From NCBI GenBank assembly GCA_944380855.1, contig CALWIW010000010.1, positions 1 to 54,232 on the forward strand: 54,232 bases of DNA, written 5' to 3'. This document shows, one piece after another, positions 5,991 to 54,232 of the stretch (position 1 is the stretch's first letter; every line of letters starts with the position of its first letter). Origin of the DNA: an uncultured Clostridia bacterium (lineage in GTDB: Bacteria; Bacillota; Clostridia; Oscillospirales; Acutalibacteraceae). The notes beneath the pieces were generated by a model. It was not told the DNA's origin. It was given only the letters and a program-made list of their open reading frames with translations, and did not search any database. The position numbers were made by a program, and so were the translations under genes.

Positions 5991-6872
5991 ATGAAATTTA
6001 CCAAAAGAATTTTAGCGGTTATGGCAGCAGTTCTCATACTTGCTGTATCATCCTTTACAGCGGTTGTTTCGGCAGATGAAAGTACATTGACTTTTAATGG
6101 TGGAAAGACTGCTAATGTAGGCGACACAATTACTTATACTTTCAGCCTTGGGGATTGCCCTGAACCTTTGGTTGGTATTCAGATGTATCTTTACTATAAC
6201 CCTGAATATTTAAAGGCCAGTGAAAAATATAAGACTGATTTGTCAGGCTATGCTATTAATACTGCTCATATTGACGATAAAGGCAATGCACAGGTTAGAA
6301 TTGCCTGCTCAAATATAAGCGGCATGGATTTCAGTTCTAAGGGAACAATTATTAGCCTTGATTTTGAGGTTCTTAAGGGCGGAGAAAGCGATATTACTTA
6401 TTTTGTAACCGAGATGTATACTCTGGATAATTCAGGCGATGTTCCTGAAATAGTACCGCTTTCGGCTTACACTTTCCATCAGGACATTACTGTTAACGGT
6501 AATTCTGTTGCAGAAAATGAAACACCTAAGCTTGAAACTGACGATGACAAGTTTACAGATGATCAGATTTCCAACTTTGTGAATAATGAAGAGGGAAAGA
6601 GCGACGGACAGACTACATATGTTCCCGAGGTTGAATCCACCACAGAAGCCGGTCAGGGTGAAACAACAGAACCTGTTACAGACGAAAACGGAGAAGTTGT
6701 TACTACACCTGTTTCAGATGGTGAAAATCAGCAGGCAACAACCGACGGACAAAATGCAGATGGTGAAAATCAGCAAGAGGGCAATAACATTGTTTTGATT
6801 ATCGTAATTATTGCAGGCGTAGTTGTTGTGGTTGGAATTATTCTTCTCCTTGTAACAAAAAAGAAAAATTGA
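5991..6872 (+). CDS. Membrane-anchored single-cohesin surface protein
   Basis: Secreted, membrane-attached protein of 293 aa. Residues 1-28 are a signal peptide ending near VVSA. Residues 30-170 look like a cohesin-type beta-sandwich: VGDTITYTFSLGDCPEPLVGIQ, then LYYNPEYLKAS, then a later KGTIISLDFEVLKGG, in the order and spacing of cohesins. Residues 170-262 are a Thr/Glu/Gln-rich flexible linker. Residues 266-289 are a hydrophobic segment followed by KKKKN, a membrane anchor with a short cytoplasmic tail. Cohesins bind dockerins, and three dockerin proteins lie in this window, so this may display them on the cell (inference). A related cohesin-fold carbohydrate-binding domain is the main alternative. 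Confidence 0.75.
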   Translation: MKFTKRILAVMAAVLILAVSSFTAVVSADESTLTFNGGKTANVGDTITYTFSLGDCPEPLVGIQMYLYYNPEYLKASEKYKTDLSGYAINTAHIDDKGNAQVRIACSNISGMDFSSKGTIISLDFEVLKGGESDITYFVTEMYTLDNSGDVPEIVPLSAYTFHQDITVNGNSVAENETPKLETDDDKFTDDQISNFVNNEEGKSDGQTTYVPEVESTTEAGQGETTEPVTDENGEVVTTPVSDGENQQATTDGQNADGENQQEGNNIVLIIVIIAGVVVVVGIILLLVTKKKN

Positions 6873-7303: not shown

Positions 7304-9010
7304 TTATGATACGAGATACACTTGAATATATGTAGCGTCTATAATGCTGATTCTGCCGTCTTGATTATAATCGGCAAGAGATTCATCAAATTCATCTGAT
7401 GCAGCCACCAATTTTACCAGGAATTTCTGAATTAAGCTTGCATCCGAAATGTTTATCTTTCCGTCCATATTAACGTCTCCCAGTTCATAATCATCGGGAT
7501 TTTTTGTGGTAACCTCTACAACATAAACTTCAGACATAAAGGAATGATATGTTGATGAAAGAGCAACTCCGAAACGATATTTTGTACCGGGAGTCAAATC
7601 TGTGAAAACAGGTGACGGCTGCCATTCAGACTCCGGAGCGGATGAGTACATTGCACCGTCAATGCTTTGCAAGGTTACAGATGTGGAAGAAATTTTTTCC
7701 ACATTTACTTCCGGTATTTTAGGTCTATCCGGAACATCAAGATGATAAATTTGACTTTTAAAATCATTATAGGTAGCGTTTCTTTGAATGTACAAATCAA
7801 CTCCCGGCATCAGCACAAATTCAGGCTGTTCTGCAATATAAACAGCGTCGGACATATCCGGATTTGTACTTACCATGTAGTTTCCGTCAAATACTTTATA
7901 GATTTTATTGTAGATGTATGCTATACGCAAAGGCTCAATTTCAAAACGGCTGGGGATAAAATTAACAAACTCCTCTCCGCCGTCAGCAGGAGTTACTGTG
8001 AGCAGGGTAGCTTCATCGTCTTTTATCATGTCAGAAACAGATGAATCGGAAAAGAGTATATTTCCATTTTCATCTTTAACAGTATAAGCGTCCTGGTCGT
8101 AAATAATAGTCTCATTTTCATAGTCAAAGGATATTTCATTTTTGTAAATGTTAAAAACATATTCTGTAGGATTTTTACCCTCTGCCTCAGATACAATTTT
8201 CACTGTTGTTTTTCCCGGTGAGGTAAAGACCTTTTCATTCCAGTCGGCAAAATTAACTTCCTCTCCGTCTAAGAAAATTTTATCTGTACCCTGAGCCATA
8301 AAACGCACTCTGTCATCAAATTTTGAAAGGTAAATATTCTTTTCCGTAAAGTTTTCCGTGTTATAATATTCTTTTTTGTCGCCGTACTGCACAGCTAAAT
8401 CCGTAAGATCTGAGGAAGCCTTTGTGTATTCTTTTTTCTCTGTATTTCCTCGGTTTCCCTGATTATCAACGCCGTATGCGTACAGTGTCACATTTTCGCC
8501 GGCGGTGAAATCTATTGTTATTGGAGCAGTGTATTTTTCATAGGAAGAATTATCAAAGGAGTAATAGATTTCTTCTGTTCCGTTGGCGGAAAGGGAAATC
8601 TCAGTTCCGTCCGGAATAGGGCCTTCCATTTCTGAAAATCTTACAGTTGACACAGCTGAATCAGAATCCGGCAATGGGTTTGTAAAGCCTTTTATGCATA
8701 CGTTTGTTACATAAGCGTCATCCCCCATAGGACCATATACATCAGCCCATTCGTCGTTTACATATACATAGCTCTCTCCGCCGCTTCCAAGATACTGCGG
8801 CACATAATCGGGTGTTGGTTTTATGCACATTTCAACAGCTACAGGAGATGTATAGTTTGGGTTTTCAAGCTCTATAACAATACTGAAACGTTCGCCTTTG
8901 TTAAGCTTTACAGGATGGTCAAGCTCTATTGTGTGATATCCTGAATATACCTCTGTTCCGGTTTGGTTTTCCAGCTTTAATGTGCCGGATTGAGGCTGAC
9001 TCTCTTCCAC
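7304..9010 (-). CDS. 3' part of an interrupted papain-family protein: lectin-like, repeat and dockerin domains
   Basis: This frame continues that of 9056-10222 and was one gene with it. The codons between the TAA at 9056-9058 and 9010 read TTDVGTSYSISVYTG with no frame change. From N to C it encodes the rest of a beta-sandwich lectin-like domain, a Ca-independent chitobiase-C-like repeat (about 135-200, ending TLYAYGVDNQGN), a cadherin-like region, a fibronectin-like stretch and a dockerin at about 508-568. The dockerin has two Ca loops (DVNMDGKINISDASLIQKFL and DYNQDGRISIIDATYIQVYL). Without readthrough it lacks a signal peptide and probably is not exported. The start at 9010 is only the first GTG after the stop and has no convincing ribosome binding site. 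Confidence 0.75.
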   Translation of the reverse strand: MEESQPQSGTLKLENQTGTEVYSGYHTIELDHPVKLNKGERFSIVIELENPNYTSPVAVEMCIKPTPDYVPQYLGSGGESYVYVNDEWADVYGPMGDDAYVTNVCIKGFTNPLPDSDSAVSTVRFSEMEGPIPDGTEISLSANGTEEIYYSFDNSSYEKYTAPITIDFTAGENVTLYAYGVDNQGNRGNTEKKEYTKASSDLTDLAVQYGDKKEYYNTENFTEKNIYLSKFDDRVRFMAQGTDKIFLDGEEVNFADWNEKVFTSPGKTTVKIVSEAEGKNPTEYVFNIYKNEISFDYENETIIYDQDAYTVKDENGNILFSDSSVSDMIKDDEATLLTVTPADGGEEFVNFIPSRFEIEPLRIAYIYNKIYKVFDGNYMVSTNPDMSDAVYIAEQPEFVLMPGVDLYIQRNATYNDFKSQIYHLDVPDRPKIPEVNVEKISSTSVTLQSIDGAMYSSAPESEWQPSPVFTDLTPGTKYRFGVALSSTYHSFMSEVYVVEVTTKNPDDYELGDVNMDGKINISDASLIQKFLVKLVAASDEFDESLADYNQDGRISIIDATYIQVYLVS

Positions 9011-20946: not shown

Positions 20947-22344
20947 TTGAAAAAAACAAAAATTTTGGCAGGAATACTTACTTCGGCTATTCTGCTGTCA
21001 TCTATGCCTGTATATTCATTTGCGGCAGAGGGAGATGTGGAAATAAACGAAACTAACTTTCCTGACGAGAGCGTACGTTATGTGGTAAAAAAAGCAGACA
21101 AGGATAAGAACAATGTTTTGTCTCAGGAAGAGATAGCGGCGGTAACCGAGCTTAAATTCTCGTCCCATCCGTCTCCCTTGGCAGATACAACAGGTCTTGA
21201 ATATTTTACAAATGTGGAAACTTTGAACATTTCCAGCACATCTATGACAGAAATGGACTGGGGAATTTTCCCGAAACTCACCACTTTAAATTGTTACAGC
21301 AACAGAAGCGTTAAGAAGCTTGATGTAAGCAAAAATACAGAGCTTGTAACCCTTGACTGTTCCGGAGATCAGATAGAAGCGTTGGATTTGAGCAACAACA
21401 CAAAGCTTGAAACAGCAAAAGTCAATACCAATAATCTTTCTGTTCTGGTTTTGGGTGATAATAAAAATCTAAAAGAGCTGAACTGTGAAAGAAATAAGCT
21501 GACAGAACTTGACGTCAGCGGTTGTACAGCACTTGAAAATCTCGCATGTCCAAACAATATGCTTGTAAATCTTGACCTTACAAATAATACAGAACTTATC
21601 AGGCTTTCAGTAAACAATAATCATAACCTTGAGAGTCTTGATATTACTAAATGTACAAAGCTTACACATATTGATACAGGATTTACTGAAGCTATGAAAG
21701 AGCTTGACCTGAGAAATAATACCGCTCTTGAAGATGTAAGCTCAAGCTACGGAGGTCTTGTGCATATCTATTTGGGTGACTGCTATCCTAATTTGAAAAA
21801 TCTGGGAATTGATACAAATGACCTTGTTGAGGTTGATTTAAGCGGAGTTACAAATACAGGATTTATCAATTTAAGAGATAATAATCTTACAAGTTTAGAC
21901 ATAAGCAACTGTGTCGAGGGAGCAAATGTTCAGACTGTCGGTAACTCTTATGATATTGAGGTTGACCCGACACGTACATTTGATCTTTCAACACTTCCCG
22001 GAAAATTTGACGTTACAAAGGCTTCAAACTGGACCGGCGGTACGGTAGACGGAAATATTCTGACAGTTGACGAGGGAGCAGAAAAAGTTACATACAGCTA
22101 TGATATAGGAAAGAACACGACAGCCGAGTTTATGTTAAATGTTACGGCTAAAGCATTTGAATTGGGCGATGTTAATGAGGACAATGCAGTAAACATTGTA
22201 GACGCAACTTTGATACAGAAGTATATTGTTAAGATTATAGCGGACGGAGAAGGCTTTAATGCCAAGCTTGCAGATGTTAATCAGGACGGTACTGTAAGTA
22301 TTATTGATGCAACAAAGGTTCAGGTTATGATTTCAAAAGAATAA
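20947..22344 (+). CDS. Secreted leucine-rich-repeat protein with C-terminal dockerin
   Basis: Exported protein of 465 aa. Residues 1-27 are a signal peptide (cut near SFAA). An EF-hand-like segment (DKDKNNVLSQEEI) leads into about ten leucine-rich repeats of the Cys/Asn type (about 70-330; for example LKELNCERNKLTELDVSG). These repeats usually bind proteins or peptides. The dockerin is residues 404-465 with two Ca loops (GDVNEDNAVNIVDATLIQKY and ADVNQDGTVSIIDATKVQ). Start is TTG, 13-14 bases after AAAGGAGGT, a little far; an ATT two codons upstream is at a better distance. It could be attached to cells through a cohesin (inference). Confidence 0.88.
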   Translation: MKKTKILAGILTSAILLSSMPVYSFAAEGDVEINETNFPDESVRYVVKKADKDKNNVLSQEEIAAVTELKFSSHPSPLADTTGLEYFTNVETLNISSTSMTEMDWGIFPKLTTLNCYSNRSVKKLDVSKNTELVTLDCSGDQIEALDLSNNTKLETAKVNTNNLSVLVLGDNKNLKELNCERNKLTELDVSGCTALENLACPNNMLVNLDLTNNTELIRLSVNNNHNLESLDITKCTKLTHIDTGFTEAMKELDLRNNTALEDVSSSYGGLVHIYLGDCYPNLKNLGIDTNDLVEVDLSGVTNTGFINLRDNNLTSLDISNCVEGANVQTVGNSYDIEVDPTRTFDLSTLPGKFDVTKASNWTGGTVDGNILTVDEGAEKVTYSYDIGKNTTAEFMLNVTAKAFELGDVNEDNAVNIVDATLIQKYIVKIIADGEGFNAKLADVNQDGTVSIIDATKVQVMISKE

Positions 22345-35013: not shown

Positions 35014-35058
35014 TCTTTTAAATCTTGTAATTTATAAATAAATATGTTATTATAAAAA

Positions 35059-35156
35059 GGTAAGGGGAATGAAGTTCTCCCCGGGATAAATCCCGAACCG
35101 CAATTATTGCTGATGACTTCTGCGAAATTTTTACGCAGAAGTTGTCGGCTTTTTTG
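35059..35156 (+). ncRNA. Fluoride (crcB) riboswitch with terminator
   Basis: The aptamer matches the fluoride class: GGGGAATGAAGTTCTCCCC (first stem-loop, with the conserved ATGxxGTTC), then AACCGC and GCTGATGACTTCTGC. The 3' strand of the aptamer (35109-35124) can pair fully with 35134-35149, allowing G-T pairs, to make a 16-bp stem followed by TTTTTT. That is a terminator in competition with the aptamer, so fluoride should turn the gene on. The antiporter gene follows, a known partner of this class. Confidence 0.85.
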
Positions 35157-35212
35157 TTTTATAGAGCAGTAAGCTTTCTGTGTTTAATGGTTGTATGGCA
35201 AATGTTGGGGAA

Positions 35213-35280
35213 AATTTAGGGATTCCAAAGGGACCACTGTCCCTTTGGCAGGTGGTTTGGAGGACAGAGTTCTCCATGGA
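35213..35280 (+). repeat. Hairpin-rich leader element before the antiporter
   Basis: CCAAAGGGAC pairs perfectly with GTCCCTTTGG (35225-35248), followed by GGAGGACAGAGTTCTCC, which pairs GGAG/CTCC. Similar sequences occur in many copies in Ruminococcaceae genomes as I recall, so it may be a dispersed element. Only this copy was seen here. Confidence 0.4.
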
Positions 35281-35295
35281 AAGGAGTTAAAATTT

Positions 35296-36474
35296 ATGTT
35301 GAGAAGTTTGGCGTTGATTTTTCTTGTTGGTCTGCTTATGGGAGGTGTTTTTAATAAATTAAAGCTTCCGTCGCTGTTGGGTATGATAATTACAGGTATG
35401 ATTTTAAGTCCCTATGCTTTGAATCTACTTGACCCGTCAATTATGGGAATATCGGCGGATTTAAGGCAGGTAGCGTTGGTTGTAATTCTCACACGAGCAG
35501 GACTTTCGCTGAATATTGAGGACTTGAAAAAGGTGGGACGTCCGGCGGTTTTGATGTGCTTTGTTCCTGCCTGTTTTGAGATTGTCGGGGTAATGCTTAT
35601 AGCTGTGCCGCTTTTGGGAGTTTCCGTCACGGAAGCCGCAATAATGGGAAGTGTTTTGGCGGCTGTTTCTCCGGCGGTCGTTGTTCCGAGAATGTTAAAA
35701 ATCATGGAAGAGGGATATGGGGTGAAAAAAAGTATACCTCAGCTTATTTTGGCAGGTGCTTCCGTTGATGATGTTTTTGTAATAGTTTTGTTTACCGCTT
35801 TTACCTCTATAGAAACAGGCGGACAGGTTTCGCCTATGTCATTTGTTCAGATTCCCGTATCAATTATTTTGGGAGTTGCCTTAGGTTTGATCTGCGGACT
35901 TGCACTTATATGGTTTTTCAAAAAGTTTCATATGAGAGATTCTGTAAAAATACTGATTTTTTTAAGCATTTCTTTTCTGCTTATTGAACTGCAAAACGCT
36001 CTTGAGGGAATAGTTCCCATATCGGGACTTTTGGCTATAATGAGCATGGGAGTTGCCCTTTATAAATGGTACAATGTGCTGGCGGTTCGCCTTTCCTCAA
36101 AATACAACAAGCTGTGGGTAGCTGCCGAAATTCTGCTTTTCGTTCTTGTAGGTGCTACGGTAGACTTAAATTATGTTGCAGCAGCCGGACTTCTGTCCTT
36201 GTGTGTTGTAGTGTTTGCCATGATTTTCAGAATGGCAGGAGTTTTTTGCTGTCTGCTTAAAACAAAGCTTGATAAAAAGGAGAGAGGGTTCTGTATGGTG
36301 GCGTATACACCAAAAGCCACTGTACAGGCGGCAATCGGCGGAATACCTCTTTCAATGGGTCTTGCCTGCGGAAATCAGGTTTTGGCTCTTGCGGTAATAG
36401 CCATACTTATAACCGCACCTTTCGGAGCGATATGTATTGATAAGCTTTACAAAAAACTTCTTGAAAAGAATTAA
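35296..36474 (+). CDS. Cation/proton antiporter under fluoride riboswitch control
   Basis: Membrane protein of 392 aa with about 12 hydrophobic segments, of the monovalent cation:proton antiporter superfamily (CPA). Typical parts are the N-terminal LLMGGVFNKLKLPSLLGMII and the ion-binding region with LILAGASVDDVFVIVLF, with adjacent Asp residues in the membrane. Its location after a fluoride riboswitch suggests a role in fluoride resistance, perhaps by F/H or Na/H exchange (inference). ATG at 35296 has AAAGGAG ten bases upstream. The frame is open back to 35191 but without a binding site. Confidence 0.88.
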   Translation: MLRSLALIFLVGLLMGGVFNKLKLPSLLGMIITGMILSPYALNLLDPSIMGISADLRQVALVVILTRAGLSLNIEDLKKVGRPAVLMCFVPACFEIVGVMLIAVPLLGVSVTEAAIMGSVLAAVSPAVVVPRMLKIMEEGYGVKKSIPQLILAGASVDDVFVIVLFTAFTSIETGGQVSPMSFVQIPVSIILGVALGLICGLALIWFFKKFHMRDSVKILIFLSISFLLIELQNALEGIVPISGLLAIMSMGVALYKWYNVLAVRLSSKYNKLWVAAEILLFVLVGATVDLNYVAAAGLLSLCVVVFAMIFRMAGVFCCLLKTKLDKKERGFCMVAYTPKATVQAAIGGIPLSMGLACGNQVLALAVIAILITAPFGAICIDKLYKKLLEKN

Positions 36475-50638: not shown

Positions 50639-50651
50639 GCACTGAATGTCA
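50633..50651. promoter_or_regulatory. Operator 2, 19-bp palindrome
   Basis: TGACAAGCACTGAATGTCA shares TGACA...ACTGAATGTCA or its mirror with operator 1. The centres are 53 bp apart, close to five helical turns, so two bound dimers would be on the same face. Confidence 0.65.
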
Positions 50652-50666
50652 TTTTAAGGTGATTAT

Positions 50667-50915
50667 ATGTTTATTAACAAAAGTATTGACGGGAAAAATA
50701 ATATTTGCGGAACAAAAATAGCAAAATATCGAAAGGTTCAGGGAAAATCTCAGAGGGAGCTTGCAGATGAGCTTCAGCTTATCGGGCTGGACGTTGATAA
50801 AAATGCGATACAAAGAATAGAAGCAGGGAAAAGATTTGTAACGGATATCGAACTTGTGTACCTTGCAAAGGTTTTAAAGGTTTCCGTTGAGGACTTATTG
50901 TCTTTTGAAGTATAA
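50667..50915 (+). CDS. XRE-family DNA-binding regulator
   Basis: Cytoplasmic repressor-type protein of 82 aa with one Cro/CI helix-turn-helix. The helices read GTKIAKYRKVQGKSQRELADELQL, NAIQRIEAGKRFVTDIELVYLAKVL, VSVEDLL. The length leaves no ligand domain. It is divergent from a lipoprotein gene with two palindromic operators between them, so it probably regulates both (inference). ATG start after AAGGTGAT. Confidence 0.88.
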   Translation: MFINKSIDGKNNICGTKIAKYRKVQGKSQRELADELQLIGLDVDKNAIQRIEAGKRFVTDIELVYLAKVLKVSVEDLLSFEV

Positions 50916-50920
50916 AAATA

Positions 50921-50973
50921 AATTCTCGGGAAGAAACAAGGCGAATTGTTTGCCTTGACCCCGGGAATTTTTT
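50921..50973 (+). terminator. Terminator of the XRE gene
   Basis: AATTCTCGGG pairs with CCCGGGAATT (one bulge), with an inner CAAGGC/GCCTTG stem, followed by TTTTT. Confidence 0.75.
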
Positions 50974-50989
50974 ATGTTATTATCTCTAA

Positions 50990-51290
50990 AGACAGGAAGC
51001 AATCGGATATTGCAAAAATCTATTTTGCAGGAAGTCGGGTGAGATTCCCGCACAGGAACGCTGCTGTAATTGCGGAGTTTTTCTTCATTGATTAAGTTCG
51101 GTCACTGAAAGCTGTTTTTCGGGAAGGCGAAGAAAAATGCTGATGCAGAGTCAGAATACATCTGTTGCTTTATGAACAAAACTCTTCGTGCTCAGGGGTG
51201 TGTTTGCATATCGGACGTACTTTTTATATGTCCGACTTTTTGCCGTGTCATGCATAATGTATTCCCAACGCCGAGTATCGGCGTTTTTTT
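50990..51290 (+). ncRNA. Cobalamin (B12) riboswitch with terminator platform
   Basis: The aptamer (about 50997-51170) has the cobalamin-class core: GGAAGTCGGGTGAGATTCCC with GCACAGGAACGCTGCTGTAA, then GGGAAGGCGAAGA, and GATGCAGAGTCAGAA ahead of the closing stem AAGCAA/TTGCTT. Two hairpins follow. TCGGAC/GTCCGA with a T tail is at 51211-51242, and AACGCCGA/TCGGCGTT followed by TTTTTTT is at 51267-51290. Such a design stops transcription when B12 is bound. The genes 51325-54232 are downstream. Confidence 0.9.
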
Positions 51291-51324
51291 GTTCTCTGTT
51301 AAAAAAATTAAAGGAGTTATGTAC

Positions 51325-53373
51325 ATGAAAAAAACTATTGCCGTCATATTGGCGGTACTGCTTATGGCACAGACTGCCGTTTTGTTTGCTTCGGCACAGG
51401 AAACCGAAAACACCGAAATATCACTCGATACGGCCATATCAGAAACTGCCGAATACCTTTTGGAAAATCCCAAAAATGACTGGGAGGTAATTGCACTTTT
51501 AAAAAGCGGTGCGGTTATTGATGACCTTTCTTTTACCGATGAATATTACAGCGGAATTGTTACAAAGCTTCAGGAAACCAAATCTCCTGTATTAAGCGGA
51601 GATGAAGACCTGCTTACAGACAATTCAAAGGCAATCCTTGTTCTCAGCTCAATGGGAATAAATTGCAGGAATATTGAAGGCTATGATATTGTAGAGCCTT
51701 TGAAAAGAATAGAGGGAATAAAGGTTCAGGGCATTAACAGCGGGATATATGCTTTGCTTGCCTTGGATTCAGGCAAATATACAACCTCTGACAGTGAAAC
51801 AAGAGACAAGCTTATTGATTATATTCTTTCCGAGCAGATTGAAAACGGTTCTTGGGCTTTTTCAAAAATATGGAGTCCGAACGGTGATGTTGATATGACT
51901 GCAATGGCTGTTCAGGCTTTGGCTCCTTATTTGGTTTCAAGACAGGATGTAAAAACCGCTGTAGAAAAAGCTGTTTCCTATATGTCAGAACAGCAGCAGG
52001 AAAACGGCGGTTACGTATCATTCGGAACAGAGAGTTGTGAAACAGCGGCTCAGGTAATTATTGCTCTTACTTCTTTGGGGATAAATCCCGAGACATCTGA
52101 GGAATTTACAAAATCTCAGGGTAATCTGCTTGACAATCTTTTAGGTTTTTATGTAAAGGGCGGCGGTTTTTCCCATACAAAGGGAGGTTCTGTAAACCAA
52201 ATGGCTACGGTTCAGGCAATGCTTGCCATGGATTCCTGTAAGCTTATGGAAAAGGGACTTTCTCTTTACTATTCCGTTCCCGAAATGGTAAACTATGCTT
52301 CAGAAAAGTCCAAAGAATATCTTTTACAGAATATTTCCCTTAAATACAATGACGAGTGGGCGGTGTTTGCTCTTGCAAGACTTGGCGAGGACGTTGTTTC
52401 AACGGGAACTTTTGACGGATATGTTGCAGATGTAAAAGCTAAGATTGCACAGACAGGTCCTGTGCTTAATACCGACAGCGGTTTTCTTACCGACAATGCA
52501 AGAGTTATTATCGCACTTACTTCTTTGGGCATAGACTGTACAGATATCGACGGCATTAATATTGTAGAGCCTCTCTCTAATCTTGATATAATTAAGGAGC
52601 AGGGTGTAAACAGTGCAATTTATGCTTTGCTGGCACTTAATACTGCCAAATACTCAACCTCTGACAAACAGCTTAACGAAAAGCTCGTGGAATATATTTT
52701 AAGCGAAAGACTTGAAAACGGTACATGGGCTTACTCTGTTGTTTGGTCGCCAAACGGAGATATTGACCTTACCGCTATGGCAGTTCAGGCTTTGGCACCT
52801 TACATGGATACAAACCAAGAGGTCAAGGCGGCTGTTGAAACAGCGATGAATTTCCTTAAAGATGAGCAGACAGAGTTTGGTTATTATGCGGCTTTTGGAA
52901 ACGCAAGCAGTTCAAGTACGGCTCAGGTTGTTTGTGCTTTGCAGGAGCTTGGAAGGGACAGCCTTTCAGACTCTGATTTTACGGTAAGCAATGTTTCTGT
53001 TTTGGACAGTCTGCTCGCATTTGCTTCAAATAACGGAGGCTTTTCAAGCAAGCTTGCTTCCAATCCCGACGCTTTTTCTACAACTCAGGCAATGTACGCA
53101 TTAACAAGCGTTATAAGAAGTCAAAAGGGCATGACTTCCCTTTACGATATGACAGATGTTTTGGATAAGAGTGCGGAAATTTTATACGGTGATGCTGACG
53201 GCAACGGAAGAGTAAATATTTTGGACGCAACGCTTGTTCAGAAATATTTGGCAGAGATAGAGGTATTGTCAGAAAATGGCAAAGCTGCCGCAGATATGGA
53301 CAGAAACGGAGTTATAAATATTTTGGATGCAACAGCTATTCAAAAGGCGATTGTAAATGAATTTGCCGCCTAA
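51325..53373 (+). CDS. Secreted double alpha/alpha-toroid protein with dockerin, B12-riboswitch controlled
   Basis: Exported protein of 682 aa. Residues 1-25 are a signal peptide (cut near FASA). Two homologous domains of the prenyltransferase/squalene-cyclase toroid type follow (about 30-330 and 335-615), each with SPNGD-DxTAMAVQALAPY and a GxFTxD-like series of helices. The dockerin (622-682) has Ca loops GDADGNGRVNILDATLVQKY and ADMDRNGVINILDATAIQ. This toroid fold is also that of the alpha domain of animal cobalamin carriers. With the riboswitch and the next gene, B12 binding is likely (inference). ATG at 51325 has AAAGGAG eight bases upstream; earlier in-frame starts lie over the terminator. 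Confidence 0.85.
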   Translation: MKKTIAVILAVLLMAQTAVLFASAQETENTEISLDTAISETAEYLLENPKNDWEVIALLKSGAVIDDLSFTDEYYSGIVTKLQETKSPVLSGDEDLLTDNSKAILVLSSMGINCRNIEGYDIVEPLKRIEGIKVQGINSGIYALLALDSGKYTTSDSETRDKLIDYILSEQIENGSWAFSKIWSPNGDVDMTAMAVQALAPYLVSRQDVKTAVEKAVSYMSEQQQENGGYVSFGTESCETAAQVIIALTSLGINPETSEEFTKSQGNLLDNLLGFYVKGGGFSHTKGGSVNQMATVQAMLAMDSCKLMEKGLSLYYSVPEMVNYASEKSKEYLLQNISLKYNDEWAVFALARLGEDVVSTGTFDGYVADVKAKIAQTGPVLNTDSGFLTDNARVIIALTSLGIDCTDIDGINIVEPLSNLDIIKEQGVNSAIYALLALNTAKYSTSDKQLNEKLVEYILSERLENGTWAYSVVWSPNGDIDLTAMAVQALAPYMDTNQEVKAAVETAMNFLKDEQTEFGYYAAFGNASSSSTAQVVCALQELGRDSLSDSDFTVSNVSVLDSLLAFASNNGGFSSKLASNPDAFSTTQAMYALTSVIRSQKGMTSLYDMTDVLDKSAEILYGDADGNGRVNILDATLVQKYLAEIEVLSENGKAAADMDRNGVINILDATAIQKAIVNEFAA

Positions 53374-53397
53374 TATTAATGAAAGACAGTTGATAAA

Positions 53398-54174
53398 ATG
53401 AAGAAACAAAAAATATTATCTCTTTTAGCGGTACTGATTCTTACTTTTCTTTTGGTTTTTTCAGGCTGTTCGTCAGATGAAAAACAGCCTGTTTCAGATA
53501 CAACCTCAGTGTCGGAAAGCACCGAAAAAGAAACAAAATCTACGGATACTTTAAAGGAAACTACAGAGGAAAGTTCTTCACTAAGCCAAGGAACTGAAGA
53601 AAAAGAAACAGAGGGTAAGGAAAATTCCTCAAATAATCAAATTTACGGAAATGACAGCGGTAATGTTAAACCGTCGGAAAATCAACAGACCACAGAACCT
53701 GCGGTTACTCAGCCGTCAACTCAGCCCGTTACGGAAAAACCGACTGAGCCTGCAACCGAACCTCAGGCAAAGGTTTGTACCATTAATATAAGCTGTGCAA
53801 CTGTGCTTAATAATATGGATAAGCTGAAAGAGGAGAAAAAAGGAATTGTTCCTCCCGGCGGTATTATTCTAAGCGGCTATCAGGTAGAGATAAAGGACGG
53901 AGATACGGCGTATGACGTACTTGTGAGGGCTTGTCAGGAAAACAGGATACACATGGACGCTGATTTTACGCCGGCTTACGGTTCGGCTTATATAAAAGGT
54001 ATAGGCAACATTTATGAAAGGGATTGCGGAAGACTTTCCGGCTGGACTTACTGCGTAAACGGAAAATTCCCCGGCATGGGGTGCAGTTCCTATGATGTCC
54101 ACGAGGGCGATACGGTGGAATTTCTCTACACCTGTGATTTGGGGGCAGATGTGGGAAATTCTTACGGCGGATAA
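53398..54174 (+). CDS. DUF4430 lipoprotein, transcobalamin-beta-like
   Basis: Surface lipoprotein of 258 aa. Signal peptide with lipobox VFSGC (Cys 23), a long Ser/Thr/Glu/Pro-rich spacer (about 25-120), then a DUF4430 domain (124-258). The domain has GDTAYDVLVRACQENRI, AYIKGIGNIYERDCGR, LSGWTYCVNGKFPGMGCSSY and GDTVEFLYTCDLG. The DUF4430 fold matches the C-terminal beta domain of intrinsic factor/transcobalamin. Cotranscribed 24 bp behind the toroid-dockerin protein under a cobalamin riboswitch. ATG start; a start-near GAAAGACAG serves as weak binding site. A role with other ligands cannot be excluded. Confidence 0.85.
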   Translation: MKKQKILSLLAVLILTFLLVFSGCSSDEKQPVSDTTSVSESTEKETKSTDTLKETTEESSSLSQGTEEKETEGKENSSNNQIYGNDSGNVKPSENQQTTEPAVTQPSTQPVTEKPTEPATEPQAKVCTINISCATVLNNMDKLKEEKKGIVPPGGIILSGYQVEIKDGDTAYDVLVRACQENRIHMDADFTPAYGSAYIKGIGNIYERDCGRLSGWTYCVNGKFPGMGCSSYDVHEGDTVEFLYTCDLGADVGNSYGG

Positions 54175-54212
54175 ATATTAATTATTTTTTAACTGAAAAG
54201 GGGTGACACGAA

Positions 54213-54232
54213 ATGTATAATGAATTTACAAA
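54213..54232 (+). CDS. Start of a further gene, cut by the window end
   Basis: ATG at 54213 follows AAAAGGGGTGA at normal distance. Only MYNEFT is visible, too little to name it. It is likely the third gene of the cobalamin-riboswitch operon; a transport component would fit. Confidence 0.5.

Follow-up and report, generated by a model that had tools for sequence, protein, structure and literature searches.

What does an operon do that places a secreted alpha/alpha-toroid protein with a dockerin, and a small surface lipoprotein, under a cobalamin riboswitch? This question is raised by the end of a 54,232-nucleotide contig from an uncultured Clostridia bacterium (CALWIW010000010.1, here C10; assembly GCA_944380855.1), the whole of which was analyzed and is called the window below. 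An earlier sequence-only reading of this DNA, made without database searches, had proposed that the two proteins form a B12-binding pair resembling intrinsic factor and that they hand B12 to a transporter. Our results indicate that the operon very probably serves the capture of B12 or a related corrinoid at the Gram-positive cell surface. It is a split, doubly anchored form of the bacterial B12 capture operons predicted in 2007 (PMC1796856), has many relatives and is not new in kind. The idea of the sequence-only reading is an independent rediscovery of that prediction, strengthened here by a link of the transporter to CbrT, by riboswitch counts and by fold comparison.

Gene content of the operon

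The RF00174 match upstream of the two genes (Table 1) exceeds the gathering score of this family (31.5 bits) and is its sole match across the genome assembly, which is 86.2% complete, so that this and the other genome-wide absences reported below are weak. Two terminator-like hairpins follow downstream, the second of which is likely the expression platform. The riboswitch with terminator that had been proposed is therefore borne out. Counted as consensus matches only, both strands of positions 50640 to 54232 hold 8 terminator-like sites versus 3.3 expected by shuffling (standard deviation, 1.9).

Table 1. Features of the operon and its continuation on a second contig (window positions unless a locus is named)
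Feature	Position	Strand	Basis
Cobalamin riboswitch aptamer	50983..51183	+	RF00174, 55.5 bits, E=3.9e-11, full model 1-189
First terminator-like hairpin with T run	51211..51235	+	Terminator consensus match; 51205-51245 alone folds at -12.5 kcal/mol
Intrinsic-terminator-like hairpin, 8 pairs then T run	51267..51285	+	Consensus match; 51262-51296 alone folds at -11.2 kcal/mol
Secreted protein, 682 aa: signal peptide, two alpha/alpha toroids, C-terminal type I dockerin	51325..53373	+	Pfam; toroid profile (n=2); signal peptide by eye
Toroid domain 1, limits approximate	51394..52302	+	Toroid profile
Toroid domain 2, limits approximate; 44% identity with domain 1	52303..53163	+	Toroid profile
Dockerin_1 domain	53185..53352	+	Pfam, 50.6 bits (cut-off 22.9)
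DUF4430 lipoprotein, 258 aa: lipobox FSGC, Thr/Glu/Pro-rich linker, transcobalamin-like beta-grasp domain	53398..54174	+	Pfam, AlphaFold2, Foldseek; lipobox by eye
DUF4430 core, Pfam limits	53899..54132	+	Pfam
First codons of EcfT (MYNEFT...), interrupted by contig end	54213..54232	+	Last 20 bases equal start of intact EcfT on contig C27
Intact EcfT, then EcfA-A' and S component	L046:11530-12399	-	Contig C27

The toroid gene, searched from its second codon (51328), exceeds the cut-offs of the Pfam families Prenyltrans, SQHop_cyclase_C and Dockerin_1, and with two matches to the toroid profile the protein has the architecture that had been read from its letters. By the matches in its genome, the organism possesses a dockerin-cohesin system: cohesins gave 10 matches, 7 of them above cut-off, and the partnership of this dockerin with one of them is predicted. 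On the same contig there are a cohesin match at 6102-6449 (+) and two more dockerin matches, at 7307-7537 (-) and 22132-22338 (+). The second gene likewise encodes the DUF4430 lipoprotein that had been claimed, with a Pfam score of 57.1 bits (cut-off, 23.8) and no second DUF4430 match in the assembly.

The window ends with contig C10, just inside a third gene. When EcfT and the S component encoded by another member of the genus were searched against this genome, both were located on a second contig, C27, whose end overlaps the last 150 bases of the window with one mismatch, at 54156. The 20 bases from the ATG at 54213 match the start of the intact EcfT there, and the genes beyond 54232 could thus be read: EcfT (290 aa), the double ATPase EcfA-A' in one chain and an S component (237 aa), which make up a predicted energy-coupling factor (ECF) importer. 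The same-genus genome (G001) carries the whole arrangement contiguously, in the order riboswitch, toroid-dockerin, DUF4430 lipoprotein, EcfT, EcfA-A' and EcfS. EcfT was identified by gene order and by homologues that stand beside EcfA and EcfS, since Pfam and NCBIfam scans gave no match for it. EcfA-A' matches Pfam ABC_tran.

The S component points to the substrate. A profile of 34 sequences (the genome's own and those of 33 of 63 loci), searched against the PDB with a limit of E 10, matched CbrT (6fnp_A) at 2e-14, the next and last match being 4hzu_S at 0.011. Entry 6FNP is the B12-specific complex ECF-CbrT (PMC5997447), and CbrUVT is counted among the B12 transporters (PMC6593275). By its sequence, then, the S component is CbrT-like, a match that sets B12 apart from the remaining ECF substrates whose S components have been solved, and does so more sharply than the riboswitch by itself. 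The transporter foreseen by the sequence-only reading exists in predicted form; the hand-over of ligand to it is a step that we infer.

Fold of the surface proteins

The AlphaFold2 model of the window's DUF4430 domain has a mean predicted local distance difference test (pLDDT) score of 94.9. Searched with Foldseek against the PDB, it gave 19 matches at E≤0.001, of which 17 are transcobalamin, intrinsic factor or haptocorrin; rank 20 follows at E 0.056. This upholds the proposed likeness of DUF4430 to the transcobalamin beta domain. In the model, helix 49-59 is followed by strands 64-69 and 74-80, which may correspond to the beta-hairpin insert that the SLBB proteins of PMC1796856 would have at this place. 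No match at E≤0.001 was found in a viral fold library.

The other two matches are chains of 3u7z, a DUF4430-like structure of RUMGNA_00854 from R. gnavus that is titled "putative metal binding protein". It may be a cobamide-binding beta domain; no paper carrying this locus tag was found.

For the toroid, likeness to the carriers was assessed on a family member in which toroid and DUF4430 are naturally fused (451 aa, locus L080), modeled with pLDDT 91.3 and a predicted template modeling score (pTM) of 0.74. Among its 51 PDB matches at E≤0.001, the best 15 are all B12 carriers (E 1.0e-11 to 1.3e-9), with alignments that cover both domains; terpene cyclases come next, with squalene cyclase at 2.3e-5. 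The fusion model and the carriers agree in the order of their domains and differ in the relative placement of these. The structural likeness to transcobalamin that had been anticipated holds directly for the window's DUF4430 domain, and for the toroid by way of this relative.

The operon in related genomes

A five-sequence DUF4430 alignment (a nine-sequence version was too divergent) yielded at least 574 encoding relatives among at least 598 pattern matches in genome contigs. The counts below concern the best 80 of the at least 574, a chosen sample nearest to the query and partly non-independent, L067 and L099 lying on one contig. By their record titles, relatives occur in gut and rumen Clostridia, including Ruminococcus bromii.

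Gene order is widely conserved. In 54 of the 59 loci with at least 3 kb of upstream sequence, a toroid gene lies no more than 4 kb upstream on the same strand; none was found within that distance in L053, L063, L077, L103 and L106. EcfT is downstream in 63 of the 74 loci with at least 1.2 kb on that side, or in 65 when L100 and L119, where its frame slightly overlaps, are included. Where at least 4.5 kb of downstream sequence is available (61 loci), EcfA is present in 53 and EcfS in 55, both on a single open reading frame (ORF) in 47. L067 and L099 have EcfT/EcfA upstream instead. Ten stretches taken at the best toroid matches in related genomes (L034 to L043) have RF00174 in six (L034, L035, L038, L039, L041 and L042), a DUF4430 domain beside the toroid in eight (not L035 or L043) and ECF genes in seven (not L035, L041 or L043).

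Toroid and DUF4430 also occur in one chain. A scan of 92 sources (the 80 loci, L034 to L043, L046 and the window) found both in a single ORF 21 times, in either domain order; the ORFs of L070, L085, L092 and L094 begin at the edge of a contig or locus. Both L037 and L040 have a single ORF, with the toroid followed by DUF4430, that directly precedes EcfT and EcfA. Large surface ORFs with a toroid and one or more DUF4430 domains lie beside or upstream of the main pair in L080 (5825-9010, in the order DUF4430-toroid-DUF4430), L107, L116, L070, L048 and L051, which suggests further capture modules.

The toroid is constant and its attachment to the surface varies, as the tails of the toroid proteins show: 24 of 57 carry SLH, 21 Dockerin_1 and 2 LPXTG (the window and 56 loci, out of 64 where a toroid ORF lies upstream, taking tails of more than 90 bases after the toroid). 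Apart from the window, tandem toroids were seen only in L047 (1 of the 64 toroid ORFs of the 80 loci). The DUF4430 proteins of several relatives look anchored by a transmembrane segment rather than by lipid. A pattern count of their N-terminal anchors (lipobox in 26 of 80, hydrophobic run only in 54, neither in 0) was discarded because it misses visible lipoboxes and tells lipoproteins poorly from transmembrane anchors.

Riboswitches were counted with a home-made model (R1) at E≤0.1, which placed one upstream in 40 of the 59 loci. R1 is a small model of 15 base pairs derived from riboswitches already detected by Rfam, and its counts were therefore cross-checked with Rfam at the gathering score on 44 of the 80 loci. 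All 10 of the strong R1 loci in this check passed, as did 9 of 15 with mostly weak ones (L069, L108, L058, L100, L093 and L102 failed). Across the 80 oriented loci, all 46 R1 matches are on the + strand and 45 of them are upstream of the main DUF4430 gene; the remaining one, in L060, precedes a second toroid gene. In loci of R. bromii and similar ones (L069, L098, L102 and L108), R1 scores 25 to 31 bits just upstream of the toroid gene, under the Rfam gathering score in L069, L102 and L108. These sites are possibly a shortened cobalamin riboswitch.

Two side observations concern the sample itself. Six loci (L049, L050, L070, L071, L079 and L104) have the toroid and DUF4430 pair with no ECF genes immediately downstream, L050 having an EcfA-EcfS ORF farther away on the opposite strand. 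The whole Gram-positive-type operon also occurs in two metagenome-assembled records titled Alistipes, a genus of Bacteroidetes (L060 and L090), which are likely mislabeled or from a mixed bin.

Known systems, rival explanations and a possible mechanism

The SLBB superfamily was defined by Burroughs, Balaji, Iyer and Aravind in 2007 (PMC1796856), and the SLBB part was restated in a second review from the same group that year (PMC1949818). Its bacterial transcobalamin-type domain was described both in fusions with alpha/alpha toroids and as a stand-alone domain, in operons with a second SLBB protein, a CbiO-like ATPase and a CbiQ-like permease. The hosts usually lack key enzymes of B12 synthesis, and scavenging of B12 or its precursors was proposed (PMC1796856). 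Among the papers listed from the open-licence literature, none was found to test this prediction by experiment. The present system is alike in its transcobalamin-type beta-grasp surface protein, in the toroid partner encoded in the same operon, in the CbiO/CbiQ-like genes (ECF A and T, found in L046 and L034) and in the proposed role. New relative to the sections of PMC1796856 that describe these systems are the division of the two halves between polypeptides with different anchors, whereas the one-chain toroid-SLBB fusion is common there, the doubled toroid, the riboswitch and the link to CbrT; dockerin, SLH and riboswitches go unmentioned in those sections.

Other systems share parts of this design. 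ECF-CbrT of Lactobacillus delbrueckii combines a related B12-type S component with EcfT and two ATPase domains (PMC5997447); here, one operon also encodes the ECF module, the ATPase domains form one chain and there are extracellular capture proteins, a kind of protein that the relevant part of that report does not mention for CbrT. BtuG2 of Bacteroidetes also captures B12 at the surface upstream of a transporter, but it is a beta-propeller partnered with the outer-membrane protein BtuB (PMC6977713), unlike the toroid and DUF4430 pair. No beta-propeller family is among the Pfam listings of either protein, and nothing in these listings pointed to homology with BtuG2. The counterpart of BtuG/BtuH that the sequence-only reading had seen here is thus an analogue and not a homologue. 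Transcobalamin, intrinsic factor and haptocorrin, the best fold matches, are also built of an alpha/alpha toroid and a beta-grasp domain; they are single soluble chains, whereas here there are two anchored proteins, for neither of which Pfam Cobalamin_bind is listed. The animal carriers release B12 by lysosomal digestion.

Several results weigh against B12 capture as the function. Neither the DUF4430 nor the toroid alignment listed transcobalamin in a profile-to-sequence search of the PDB, so that the likeness to the carriers rests on fold. The fusion model lacks the domain orientation of the carriers (query template modeling [TM] score, 0.34 to 0.46; root mean square deviation, 10 to 12 Å). 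The top Pfam model of the S component is the riboflavin-type PF07155 (53.0 bits; cut-off, 26.7), ahead of the general ECF_trnsprt (51.3 bits, also over cut-off), and NCBIfam folate and riboflavin models match it below cut-off. Among the relatives, 9 of 74 loci have no EcfT directly downstream. Rfam found no riboswitch in any of the 19 R1-negative loci of the 59, some of which are truncated inside the upstream gene where the contig stops, and 5 of the 22 R1-positive loci (of 40) put through Rfam failed the gathering score, 17 passing. In the host genome there is no match to the adenosyltransferase family PF01923, other families of this activity not having been searched, and two FecCD permeases, which might serve a second B12 importer or an iron importer, match above cut-off.

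Two further results of this kind bear on specific alternatives. The ATPase exceeds the cut-off of the NCBIfam cobalt model cbiO (TIGR01166), as would suit a riboswitch-controlled ECF cobalt transporter whose surface proteins bind metal. Cobalt transporters, too, stand under cobalamin riboswitches (PMC3766115), and the title of 3u7z points the same way. Cobalt uptake is nevertheless extremely unlikely: the ATPase also exceeds the cut-off of the general ECF_ATPase_1, the S component matches vitamin-type ECF models of Pfam as well as CbrT, with no cobalt-type component listed, and the fusion model has the two-domain architecture of the carriers. CbiC, the one corrin-ring enzyme searched, had no match in the incomplete genome, and cobalt for corrin synthesis is therefore not expected. 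The toroid profile, in turn, ranked squalene cyclases first in the PDB. Together with the dockerin, and with GH105 enzymes among the weaker fold matches of the fusion model, this would fit a polysaccharide-acting or terpene-cyclase-like cellulosome enzyme that is merely cotranscribed with a B12 transporter. The presence of the toroid upstream of DUF4430 in 54 of 59 loci and the 21 ORFs that join both domains make such an enzyme very unlikely, and the SLH tails that replace the dockerin in many relatives likewise argue against it.

It is rather unlikely, though less remote, that the preferred ligand is a corrinoid other than B12 proper, such as cobinamide, another cobamide or a precursor, taken up by the same mechanism. 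ECF-CbrT takes both cobalamin and cobinamide (PMC5997447), and the S component belongs to a CbrT-like family; the present data do not separate corrinoids, RF00174 being a generic cobalamin family.

For capture of B12 or a related corrinoid, the mechanism that best explains the findings would be the following. At low intracellular cobalamin, the riboswitch would allow transcription past the terminator, making the operon cobalamin repressed. The toroid protein would leave the cell and attach through its dockerin to a cohesin scaffold, and the DUF4430 lipoprotein would stay tethered to the membrane. A cobamide could then be enclosed between one toroid and one DUF4430 domain, in the way that transcobalamin encloses it between its alpha and beta domains, and the lipid-anchored half would deliver the ligand to the dedicated ECF importer with its CbrT-like S component. 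The importer would move it into the cytosol, where it would serve MetH and possibly other enzymes; the genome encodes a MetH-like B12 enzyme (NCBIfam metH, 415.6 bits, below the cut-off of that model).

A more tentative idea, about which we have more doubt than confidence, is that of a transcobalamin that comes apart, its division into two proteins serving a purpose. The toroid on the outer scaffold or wall would load B12, and the beta domain at the membrane would take it over and release it to the S component, so that separation of the halves would itself be the release step; the single-chain carriers of animals would then have arisen from bacterial systems of this kind, an origin that Burroughs et al. 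proposed (PMC1796856).

Concrete, testable protein pairs are now available for the 2007 prediction. Given the gut and rumen Clostridia among the relatives, some Gram-positive bacteria of the gut may depend on a transcobalamin-like system to capture B12, and this system could compete with the carriers of the host, which share its architecture. With a dockerin borne by a protein for vitamin capture, cellulosome-type scaffolds would also reach past carbohydrate enzymes.

Elsewhere in the window, a fluoride riboswitch (RF01734, 48.9 bits) at 35056-35129 (+) lies upstream of the gene at 35191-36474 (+), a 427-aa ORF that by eye looks like a cation/proton antiporter.

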